This document shows, piece after piece, positions 33,028-38,575 of a stretch of 64,000 nt of DNA. Under the pieces are notes generated by a model. It had not been told where the DNA came from, did no database searches, and saw only the letters and a list, made by a program, of their open reading frames with translations. Each line of letters opens with the position of its first letter. The stretch's first letter is position 1. A program made the translations under genes and the position numbers. The stretch is from Bacteroidota bacterium (lineage in GTDB: Bacteria > Bacteroidota > Bacteroidia > Chitinophagales > Chitinophagaceae): NCBI GenBank assembly GCA_013287475.1, contig JABDDT010000001.1, forward strand, positions 35,339-99,338. The letters run 5' to 3'.

Positions 33028-34692
33028 CTATCTTGTATTCGCATCATTCATACGAATCCTTCTCCCCTTGTAATTCTTGCCATCTATAGCTCTGATCATC
33101 TGGGGAGCCGATTTTCTGTCAATCTCGATCCAGCTGTTCATTTCCTTCATATCAATTTTCCCCAACACGTCTTTTCTCAGGTCGCTCATATCCAATACAA
33201 ACTGAAGAAAGCTGGCTTTATAGAAACCATCCTTAGTTCCAAGATTCACAAATAATTTTACAAAATCACCGTTTCCGGGAGAAAATGAGGGGCGCGGTGA
33301 TCTGACTGCTCCAATAGGTATACGTTCTCTTGGTCCGCGTGAAGGTGCCTCTCTTTCTCTTTGTACACGCACATTCAGGTCTTCCGCATTTTCATAATAT
33401 TTTAGAAATCGCGTAAATTCCTGAGCTGCTACTCTTTTCAATACATCCTCTTTGCTCACATCTGCAAATTTTTCTTCCATCATGGGAACATATGATTCAT
33501 AGTCCCCGTGACTGATATCTGCATTCAGTAATTTATCCATAAAATGAAAAAACTGCTTGCGACAAACATCTTTTCCGGTCGGTACTTCCACTTTATGAAA
33601 AGGTACTTGTACAATGCGTTCTATCTGACGGAGTTTTCCGATTTCTCTTGAATGGATAATCGACAAACAAACTCCAGTATTTCCAGCCCTTCCTGTCCTA
33701 CCACTTCTGTGGGTGTAGATTTCCACATCATCCGGCAACTCATAATTAATAACATGGGTAATTCCCTGCACGTCAATTCCGCGGGCCGCTACATCTGTAG
33801 CAATGAGCAGCTGCAATGATTTCTCCCTGAATTCGCCCATAACTTTATCCCGTTGCTGCTGGGTCAGATCACCATGCAATGCATCGATATCGTATCCTTC
33901 CCGTGTAAGTTTTTCAGAAATATTTTGCGCATCTGCTTTGGTGCGCGTAAAAATAATTCCGTAAATACCCGGGTTAAAATCAATCAATCGTTTTAGCGCT
34001 TCATAACGATGATGCGCATTTGTGACAAAAAACTGGTGATCTATATTTTTGTTGGCTGTATTCTTGGTACCAACAGTTATTTCCATTGGATCCTTCATAT
34101 ACTTTCGGCTTACCCTTTTAATTTCAGCAGGCATTGTTGCACTAAATAACCAGGTAGCATCCCGTTTGGGCGTATTCTGAAGAATAAATTCGATATCATC
34201 CTGAAATCCCATATTCAGCATTTCATCTGCTTCATCAAGCACCACATATTTTATCTCTTCCAGATTGATGGCTTTCCTTTCGATCAGGTCAATGAGCCTG
34301 CCTGGTGTTGCAACGACAATTTGAACACCCCTTCTTAAATCCCGGATCTGCATACCAATTGAAGCACCGCCATATACAGCCAAAACCTGAACAGCAGCCA
34401 TATATTTTTTGAAAAGTTCCAGTTCACTTACAATCTGCATACAGAGTTCTCTTGTCGGACAAACAATAAGTGCCTGGGGAAATCTTTGTTCAGCTTTCAA
34501 TAGTTGCAACAATGGCAGCCCAAAAGCTGCAGTTTTACCGGTTCCGGTTTGTGCAAGACCGACCAGGTCCTTGGTGCCACTCAATAAAACCGGAATTGCT
34601 TTTTCCTGTATGGGGGTGGGTTGGGTATACCCTAAAGAGGTTATAGCCTTCAGAAGGTTCTCCTGTAACCCAAGCCCTTCAAATGTACTCAT
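33028..34692 (-). CDS. DEAD-box RNA helicase with DbpA-type C-terminal RNA-binding domain
   Basis: A 554-residue RNA helicase of the DeaD/CsdA group. Motifs in order: Q motif GYTQPTPIQEKAIP, AQTGTGKTAAFGLP (I), PTRELCMQIVSE (Ia), VATPGRLIDL (Ib), VLDEADEMLNMGF (II), FSATMP (III), IIFTRTKADAQ (IV) and THRSGRTGRAGNTG (VI). A basic linker and a DbpA RNA-binding domain follow (DFVKLFVNLGTKDGFYKASF to GKNYKGRRIRM). It interrupts the aromatic amino acid cluster and has its own TAnnTTTG box, so it may be transcribed separately. DeaD-type enzymes act in ribosome assembly and mRNA decay in the cold. Confidence 0.95.
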   Translation of the reverse strand: MSTFEGLGLQENLLKAITSLGYTQPTPIQEKAIPVLLSGTKDLVGLAQTGTGKTAAFGLPLLQLLKAEQRFPQALIVCPTRELCMQIVSELELFKKYMAAVQVLAVYGGASIGMQIRDLRRGVQIVVATPGRLIDLIERKAINLEEIKYVVLDEADEMLNMGFQDDIEFILQNTPKRDATWLFSATMPAEIKRVSRKYMKDPMEITVGTKNTANKNIDHQFFVTNAHHRYEALKRLIDFNPGIYGIIFTRTKADAQNISEKLTREGYDIDALHGDLTQQQRDKVMGEFREKSLQLLIATDVAARGIDVQGITHVINYELPDDVEIYTHRSGRTGRAGNTGVCLSIIHSREIGKLRQIERIVQVPFHKVEVPTGKDVCRKQFFHFMDKLLNADISHGDYESYVPMMEEKFADVSKEDVLKRVAAQEFTRFLKYYENAEDLNVRVQREREAPSRGPRERIPIGAVRSPRPSFSPGNGDFVKLFVNLGTKDGFYKASFLQFVLDMSDLRKDVLGKIDMKEMNSWIEIDRKSAPQMIRAIDGKNYKGRRIRMNDANTR

Positions 34693-36947: not shown

Positions 36948-37787
36948 TTATGTCTGTATTCCTTTTTTGTAAATTCCATAAATTTTTAAATCAGATATTG
37001 CAGGTTTAATAATCTCGATCACATTTTCAAATTCGTTCGTATTTTCAAATTCCATATCAGCATGAAAACTATATTTCCAGTCACTGCCGGGTATCGGATA
37101 GGATTGCAATTTGCTCAGGTTAATACCAGCATTCGCAATGAGAGTAAGCACTTTTGCGAGGCTTCCACGTGAATGATCAGTATGAAAAGTAACAGAAGCT
37201 TTATTTGCATCTTTTACAGGTTCTGAATTTTCTTTACGTTGTAATACTAAAAATCTTGTATAGTTATTTTTCATGGTATGAATATCGGGGGCGATCATCT
37301 CCAATTGAAATAAACTGGCTGCCAGGTTACTGGCGATGCCAGCGATATGCTTGCTTTTACGCTGATGAATATGTTTTGCACTCAGGGCAGTATCTTCCGT
37401 TTCAATCAGTTTCCAATCGAATTGGTTTAGATAATCCAGACATTGCAGTATGGCCATCGGATGGGAATGTACTTCCTTTATGTCTTTAAGTGTTATGCCC
37501 GGATTCACTACCAGATTCTGTCGGATCTGCAAATAAATTTCACCCGAAATCACCAGGTCACTATTCCGAAGCAGTGAATAGTTGGGAAGAATGCTACCTG
37601 CAATGGAATTTTCTATAGCCATTACCGCAGCATCACAAAGGCTTGGATCAGTTACTGATTTCACTACTTCCTGGAAGCGGGCACATGCCAGAATATTGGT
37701 CTTTTCGCCAAAAAAAATTCTGACTGCTTCCTGATGAAAACTTCCTTCATATCCCTGAATGGCTACACGTTGAATAGGTTGCTGCAT
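36948..37787 (-). CDS. pheA: Prephenate dehydratase with ACT domain
   Basis: Converts prephenate to phenylpyruvate for phenylalanine. The 279-residue protein begins VAIQGYEGSFHQEAVRIFFG. It has AVMAIENSIAGSILPNYSLL, the HSHPMAILQC region and NNYTRFLVLQ with the conserved T-R-F catalytic motif. The C-terminal ACT domain (VTFHTDHSRGSLAKVLTLIA, then KLQSYPIPGSDWKYSFH) normally binds Phe for feedback inhibition. No chorismate mutase domain. It is the first structural gene behind a Phe/Tyr attenuator, so it should be controlled at both enzyme and transcription level. Confidence 0.95.
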   Translation of the reverse strand: MQQPIQRVAIQGYEGSFHQEAVRIFFGEKTNILACARFQEVVKSVTDPSLCDAAVMAIENSIAGSILPNYSLLRNSDLVISGEIYLQIRQNLVVNPGITLKDIKEVHSHPMAILQCLDYLNQFDWKLIETEDTALSAKHIHQRKSKHIAGIASNLAASLFQLEMIAPDIHTMKNNYTRFLVLQRKENSEPVKDANKASVTFHTDHSRGSLAKVLTLIANAGINLSKLQSYPIPGSDWKYSFHADMEFENTNEFENVIEIIKPAISDLKIYGIYKKGIQT

Positions 37788-37792
37788 ATGAT

Positions 37793-37822
37793 AAAAAAAA
37801 ATCCCGGCTTTTGACCGGGATT
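37793..37822 (-). terminator. Attenuator terminator directly upstream of pheA
   Basis: On the minus strand AATCCCGG and CCGGGATT form a perfect 8-bp GC-rich stem with a 7-nt loop (tcaaaag). It runs into nine Ts, two of them in the stem. The T-run ends 5 nt before the pheA ATG, so a terminator here would stop transcription before the gene. This location makes sense only as a conditional terminator. Confidence 0.92.
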
Positions 37823-37873
37823 CTATTGTTAAGTTCTAAAAATTACCTGTTGATTAACAAAAGCATGCCCGGT
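37814..37873 (-). promoter_or_regulatory. Alternative antiterminator fold of the pheA leader
   Basis: Two nested pairings are possible upstream of the terminator. ACCGGG inside the leader ORF (37868-37873) pairs with CCCGGT of the terminator 5' arm (37814-37819). TTGTTAA at the end of the leader ORF (37854-37860) pairs with TTAACAA (37826-37832). Both cannot coexist with the terminator. A ribosome completing the leader ORF would cover the upstream strands and allow termination; a ribosome stalled in the Phe/Tyr run would leave them free. Confidence 0.8.
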
Positions 37874-37999: not shown

Positions 38000-38575
38000 T
38001 TATAAGTTGTTTAATCTTTTCTCCTGCAAGGAACTTACCAGTTTAAAAAGATGAAAGGGCTTATAAATTCTCCAGTCAGGCTGCTCTATGAGACTGATGT
38101 AACGATCCAGTTTGGCCCTGCGAAAATCATACTGGGTCGGTTCTGGCATATTAATGCAGACAACCCAACCTTGCCTGTCTTCCACGTCTTCTCTCCATTC
38201 TTCATAATAATCTTTATCGCCGCTATGGAAATTCAGTACGTTTTCTGCGATTAGAATAAATTTAAAAATTCCTTCTGCCATGAATTTATCAGCTACTTCT
38301 CTTTTGAGGCTCATTATATCATTTTCAATTGCGTCATTCCATTCACCGATCAGTTCAATAATTACATATTTTTCTTCATAATCGGCTAATAACACTTTTA
38401 AATAAAGCGTTCGTGAGCCAAATTCATCCCATTGAGGATGAATTAAATAATTATAGATCGCCTGAGTAAATTCAAATTCTGAATAAATACGTCCGAAGAA
38501 GGGTGAACGTTCGTCTTCCTCACTAATATAAATGTGTCGCCAGTTATAATATGGTTCAATATCATGCATATTCAA
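38000..38575 (-). CDS. Conserved-looking hypothetical protein
   Basis: A 191-residue acidic, aromatic-rich protein with no signal peptide or membrane helix. Sequence landmarks are YYNWRHIYISEEDERSPFFG, TQAIYNYLIHPQWDEFGSRT, KYVIIELIGEWNDAIENDIM and GWVVCINMPEPTQYDFRRAK. I do not recognise the family; it has the look of a Bacteroidota-specific cytoplasmic protein. It lies upstream of the pheA attenuator on the same strand but about 65 nt separate it from the leader, where the attenuator promoter is placed, so a shared function is not implied. Confidence 0.7.
   Translation of the reverse strand: MNMHDIEPYYNWRHIYISEEDERSPFFGRIYSEFEFTQAIYNYLIHPQWDEFGSRTLYLKVLLADYEEKYVIIELIGEWNDAIENDIMSLKREVADKFMAEGIFKFILIAENVLNFHSGDKDYYEEWREDVEDRQGWVVCINMPEPTQYDFRRAKLDRYISLIEQPDWRIYKPFHLFKLVSSLQEKRLNNL

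Follow-up and report, generated by a model that had tools for sequence, protein, structure and literature searches.

A predicted ribosome-mediated attenuator with a Phe/Tyr-rich leader upstream of the pheA operon in Chitinophagaceae

We consider it highly likely, on the basis of comparative sequence analysis, that a ribosome-mediated transcription attenuator of the trp/phe type controls the pheA-aminotransferase-tyrA-aro operon of a Chitinophagaceae bacterium and that this control responds to charged tRNA-Phe and tRNA-Tyr. All elements of the switch are located on the minus strand, upstream of the operon. Three of the features by which an attenuator is recognized are found together: a run of amino acid codons within a short ORF, a terminator before the first gene, and an evolutionarily supported antiterminator that excludes this terminator. 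Because about 100 related species keep the design, the switch is very probably real. This kind of switch is already known, and the leader described here is a further, well-supported case.

The pheA operon and its leader region

The first gene of the operon is pheA (36948-37787, minus strand), assigned to prephenate dehydratase by a protein family match. Further operon genes, also assigned by match, code for a class I/II aminotransferase, prephenate dehydrogenase (tyrA), a DEAD-box helicase, DAHP synthase/chorismate mutase, 3-dehydroquinate synthase (aroB), EPSP synthase (aroA), and chorismate synthase (aroC). The gene for the DEAD-box RNA helicase (33028-34692, minus strand) lies inside this aromatic operon, with tyrA on one side and the gene for DAHP synthase/chorismate mutase on the other.

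The leader ORF (37935-37843, minus strand) consists of 30 codons followed by a TAA stop codon. Its translation is MVNRKAYRYFGFYFFFYFRSKPGMLLLINR, with Phe or Tyr encoded by 10 of the 30 codons. The Phe/Tyr codon run extends over codons 7-18 (37917-37882) and contains the predicted stall sites. Upstream of the ORF, TATTTTTG at 37952-37945 matches the Bacteroidota -7 box consensus TAnnTTTG and is predicted to be part of the promoter, with TTTG at 37972-37969 as a possible -33 element. The box is enriched throughout the family: of 98 leaders, 73 have a perfect TAnnTTTG whose end lies 3-10 nt upstream of the ATG, against an expectation of 0.83. Its position so near to the leader ATG suggests that the 5′ UTR of the leader mRNA is very short, so that this mRNA may be nearly leaderless.

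An intrinsic terminator is predicted at 37824-37798 (minus strand), with the sequence AGAATCCCGGT-CAAAA-GCCGGGATTTT followed by a T-run and with a stem of 11 bp. Together with the leader ORF, this stem-loop can be described by four segments on the minus strand. Segment 1 is a protector arm at the start of the ORF (37934-37914), defined by pairing tests and folding. Segment 2 (37873-37854) follows the Phe/Tyr run within the ORF and comprises an outer part, ACCGGG (37873-37868), and an inner part, TTGTTAA (37860-37854). Segment 3 (37832-37814) comprises the corresponding inner part, TTAACAA (37832-37826), and outer part, CCCGGT (37819-37814), the latter being shared with the 5′ arm of the terminator. 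Segment 4 is the 3′ arm of the terminator (37808-37798) and pairs with segment 3. The outer parts are backed by shuffle tests, swap tests and folding, and the inner parts by shuffle tests, covariation and folding. Helices 1:2 and 3:4 are compatible with each other, while helix 2:3 excludes both.

The preliminary description had proposed the two segment 2:3 pairings as nested stems of an antiterminator. Both pairings are present with perfect complementarity on the minus strand, and the nested pairs would indeed unfold the terminator stem. It had also taken TTGTTAA for the end of the ORF, which has to be corrected: the frame continues through ATC AAC AGG TAA, so that the stop codon is found at 37845-37843. 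When this sequence is considered alone, the outer helix reaches p=0.010 against dinucleotide shuffles of the leader and the inner helix only p=0.07.

Conservation of the leader and selection on its pairings

A pheA protein search was positive in 105 of 150 genomes from the same family. With detection thresholds set for this analysis, a Phe/Tyr-rich leader ORF was found in 102 of these (three lack it), and a terminator is located downstream in 99 of the 102. The closest named relatives are Chitinophagaceae, and the matches include Chitinophaga, Niastella, Filimonas, and Sediminibacterium. For 80 named loci, which partly overlap with the 105-genome set, the ORF was detected in 78, the terminator in 73, and a strong antiterminator helix in 70 cases. 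The closest named relative, with a PheA that is 79% identical, retains GACCGGGA:TCCCGGTC as well as TTGTTAA:TTAACAA. Both Phe and Tyr are encoded in 97 of the 98 scored leaders. Comparable leaders are present before pheA outside the family too, both in the same order and elsewhere in the class.

At some loci, two Phe/Tyr-rich leader ORFs occur in series within at most about 400 nt upstream of pheA. This was observed for Chitinophaga-type loci (L094, L097, L217, L226), for Hymenobacter-type loci (L129, L130, L227, L228), and also for L114. In several cases each of the two ORFs has its own terminator, as if these were tandem attenuators.

The preliminary description had itself named the absence of covariation between the leader ORF and the terminator arm as the result that would speak against it. 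Such covariation was found, by complementarity against shuffles, by a swap test, and in the inner helix. For the outer 2:3 helix, complementarity exceeds that of dinucleotide shuffles in most leaders: p<=0.05 is reached in 89 and p<=0.01 in 64 of the 99 (kinship ignored). In the swap test, terminator arms were scored against the leader of their own genome and against leaders from other genomes. The summed score for own leaders is 1964.5, as compared to a mean of 1713 with a standard deviation of 21 from 60 permutations, and is thus about 12 standard deviations above the mean (kinship ignored). Fourteen terminator arms are divergent. For 11 of them, no more than 6% of the foreign arms match the leader in question better than its own arm does; two fail to fit (L070, L092) and one is intermediate (L077). 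Examples of divergent arms that match their own leader are GCGGGG:CCCCGC, GCCGGAG:CTCCGGC, GGATCGGGT:ACCCGATCT, and TAGCCCGG:CCGGGCTA. The CCGGG motif does not keep to a single reading frame of the leader ORF: it occupies frame 0 in 42 leaders, frame 2 in 19, and frame 1 in 7. As the motif occurs in three frames and divergent arms change together with the leader, these comparisons indicate that it is the RNA pairing that is conserved and not the leader peptide.

Covariation was analysed in MAFFT alignments that were computed from sequence only, with counts that ignore kinship. RNAalifold recovered the terminator alone from full-length alignments, presumably because the conformers are mutually exclusive, and for this reason the helices were tested singly. 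In the type-A alignment (n=39), the inner helix is 91% paired and has 8 compensatory cells, compared to a mean of 1.6 and a maximum of 6 in shuffles, and slid versions of this helix reach at most 49% pairing. The core of the outer helix is nearly invariant in the same alignment and shows little covariation, its support coming from the divergent arms. A pause hairpin formed by GCAUACC and GGGCAUGC had been suggested as well. Of this, the complementarity stands, helix 1:2 being significant at p<=0.05 against shuffles in 56 of 99 leaders, while covariation in the type-A alignment does not exceed that of shuffles.

We also considered that the hairpin might be a plain terminator of the gene upstream, with the short ORF and its complementarity being incidental. 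A co-directional ORF of 191 aa (38000-38575, minus strand), which gave no match when searched against Pfam and NCBIfam, is indeed located immediately upstream, with about 65 nt between its end and the leader ORF, and intrinsic terminators are commonplace after genes. However, the Phe/Tyr-rich ORF, the complementary arm and the terminator recur together before pheA in 99 of the 105 family genomes, changes in the leader and in the terminator arm are matched between genomes, and the -7 box just before the leader ATG points to a dedicated promoter. We thus regard this explanation as very improbable and interpret the hairpin as the terminator of an attenuator.

Ribosome position and the proposed mechanism

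Folding was modelled with a ribosome footprint that extends from -14 to +16 around the P-site. For an RNA that ends before segment 4, helix 2:3 forms with a probability of 0.96-0.98 while codons 7-17 are in the A site, and this value drops to 0.40 at codon 18 and to 0.00 at codon 19. This agrees with the earlier proposal that a ribosome in the Phe/Tyr run leaves the antiterminator free. The arrangement is general: in 95 of 98 leaders, 6-12 nt separate the last Phe/Tyr codon from the start of the outer 5′ arm, which is thus just outside of a stalled ribosome. In the model, a ribosome that occupies any of codons 19-26 prevents the outer stem from forming. It had been assumed, in addition, that a ribosome that reaches the UAA covers both segments, and this did not hold: such a ribosome masks the inner TTGTTAA but not the outer ACCGGG, which is about 28 nt upstream, and in the truncated RNA the outer helix can still form. 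In just 33 of 98 relatives would a ribosome at the UAA mask half of the outer arm or more.

Folding with a ribosome footprint, which had been suggested as a check, gave a divided result. In the truncated RNA, helix 2:3 tracks the position of the ribosome, but in full-length RNA at equilibrium the 3:4 terminator wins for nearly every ribosome position, stalled or not. Equilibrium folding was thus rejected as a proof of switching. Since the full-length equilibrium fold favours 3:4, any antitermination would, according to the model, have to be kinetic. Antitermination in the trp attenuator is likewise thought to be kinetic.

We propose the following mechanism, in which transcription-translation coupling, ribosome stalling, and the actual termination outcome are inferred. 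A shortage of Phe or Tyr would cause the ribosome to stall in the Phe/Tyr codons and to leave segment 2 free. The 2:3 antiterminator could then form before segment 4 has been made, and RNA polymerase would enter pheA. When Phe and Tyr are plentiful, the ribosome would cross segment 2, with the outer stem being lost while codons 19-26 are translated; helix 2:3 would not form and the 3:4 terminator would halt transcription. If the leader is not translated at all, segment 1 would sequester segment 2, and 3:4 would again be favoured. Sequence and comparative data establish the ORF and the terminator and show that helices 2:3 and 3:4 are conserved and covary.

The leader might act chiefly on translation or on mRNA stability, by re-initiation or by protection through a stalled ribosome, with premature termination being secondary. 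Leader ORFs near genes have been proposed to boost translation through re-initiation (PMC4833913), and transcription-translation coupling in this phylum is not established by the present findings. However, the gap between the stop codon and the terminator has a median of 25 nt among the family leaders, and a GC hairpin with a T-run is conserved between leader and gene. The distance is too large, and the arrangement too specific, for simple re-initiation. A role mainly in translation or stability is therefore considered very unlikely compared to transcription attenuation.

Comparison to known attenuators and wider occurrence

The E. coli trp attenuator consists of four segments, with the alternative helices 1:2, 2:3, and 3:4 being set by the position of the ribosome. 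The leader described here would share the four-segment layout with three alternative helices. It differs from the E. coli trp system in that segment 2 is entirely within the leader ORF, the outer arm starting about 28 nt ahead of the stop codon.

At gathering score, no Rfam family matches anywhere in the 64,000-nt window, this being the complete stretch of DNA that was analysed. The best match in a permissive Rfam scan is RF01859 (Phe_leader) with 28.0 bits (E=0.0063), far short of the 55 bits that the gathering score demands. The enterobacterial phe leader represented by this family (pheL-pheA) resembles the present one in that its leader peptide is rich in Phe, its antiterminator and terminator exclude each other, and the gene downstream codes for prephenate dehydratase. 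In contrast to the enterobacterial case, the run is a mixture of Phe and Tyr codons, the 5′ arm of the antiterminator is within the ORF, and tyrA and aro genes belong to the operon. The permissive scan also bears on the question of whether a T-box or an amino acid riboswitch, sensing tRNA or a ligand, is in place here, as these use the same terminator/antiterminator logic ahead of amino acid genes. Neither of them was found in that scan, and the Phe/Tyr run, which is encoded by the leader in 102 of 105 genomes, would be needless for a riboswitch. We consider such a sensor to be extremely improbable and retain ribosome-mediated attenuation.

Within the phylum, our literature search on leader-peptide attenuation gave brief reports only, and a prediction may already be contained in an earlier comparative survey of attenuation. 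Clues for leader-peptide attenuation at amino acid operons have been described for Flavobacterium psychrophilum, where pheA has a structured 5′ element that is found in other Flavobacteriaceae genera and has no Rfam hits (PMC9723704). That element shares phylum and gene with the present case from Chitinophagaceae; the passages of that report used for comparison contain neither a model of alternative pairings nor covariation for pheA. Bacteroid-trp RNA (RF01692) has been listed among the candidate cis-regulatory RNAs in Bacteroidetes (PMC2864571) and was not matched in the permissive Rfam scan even at E<=10. In Bacteroides thetaiotaomicron, sORFs that are reminiscent of leader peptides have been described (PMC7366714). 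The element analysed here is a predicted attenuator in Bacteroidota that is supported by covariation and is without an Rfam family.

If working, the switch would be a natural reporter of whether ribosomes closely trail RNA polymerase, in a phylum that has been described as lacking Shine-Dalgarno sequences. There is about an even chance that a joint Phe and Tyr attenuator on near-leaderless mRNAs is widespread in the class, which is described as lacking these sequences, and is doubled in series in Chitinophaga and Hymenobacter. If so, transcription-translation coupling in the phylum would be tight enough for attenuation.

The same genome was also searched for other attenuators. HisG and IlvD gave no match, but absences mean little as this genome is listed as 74% complete. 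A TrpE-type match is weak and below the threshold, and two matches were obtained for homoserine dehydrogenase.
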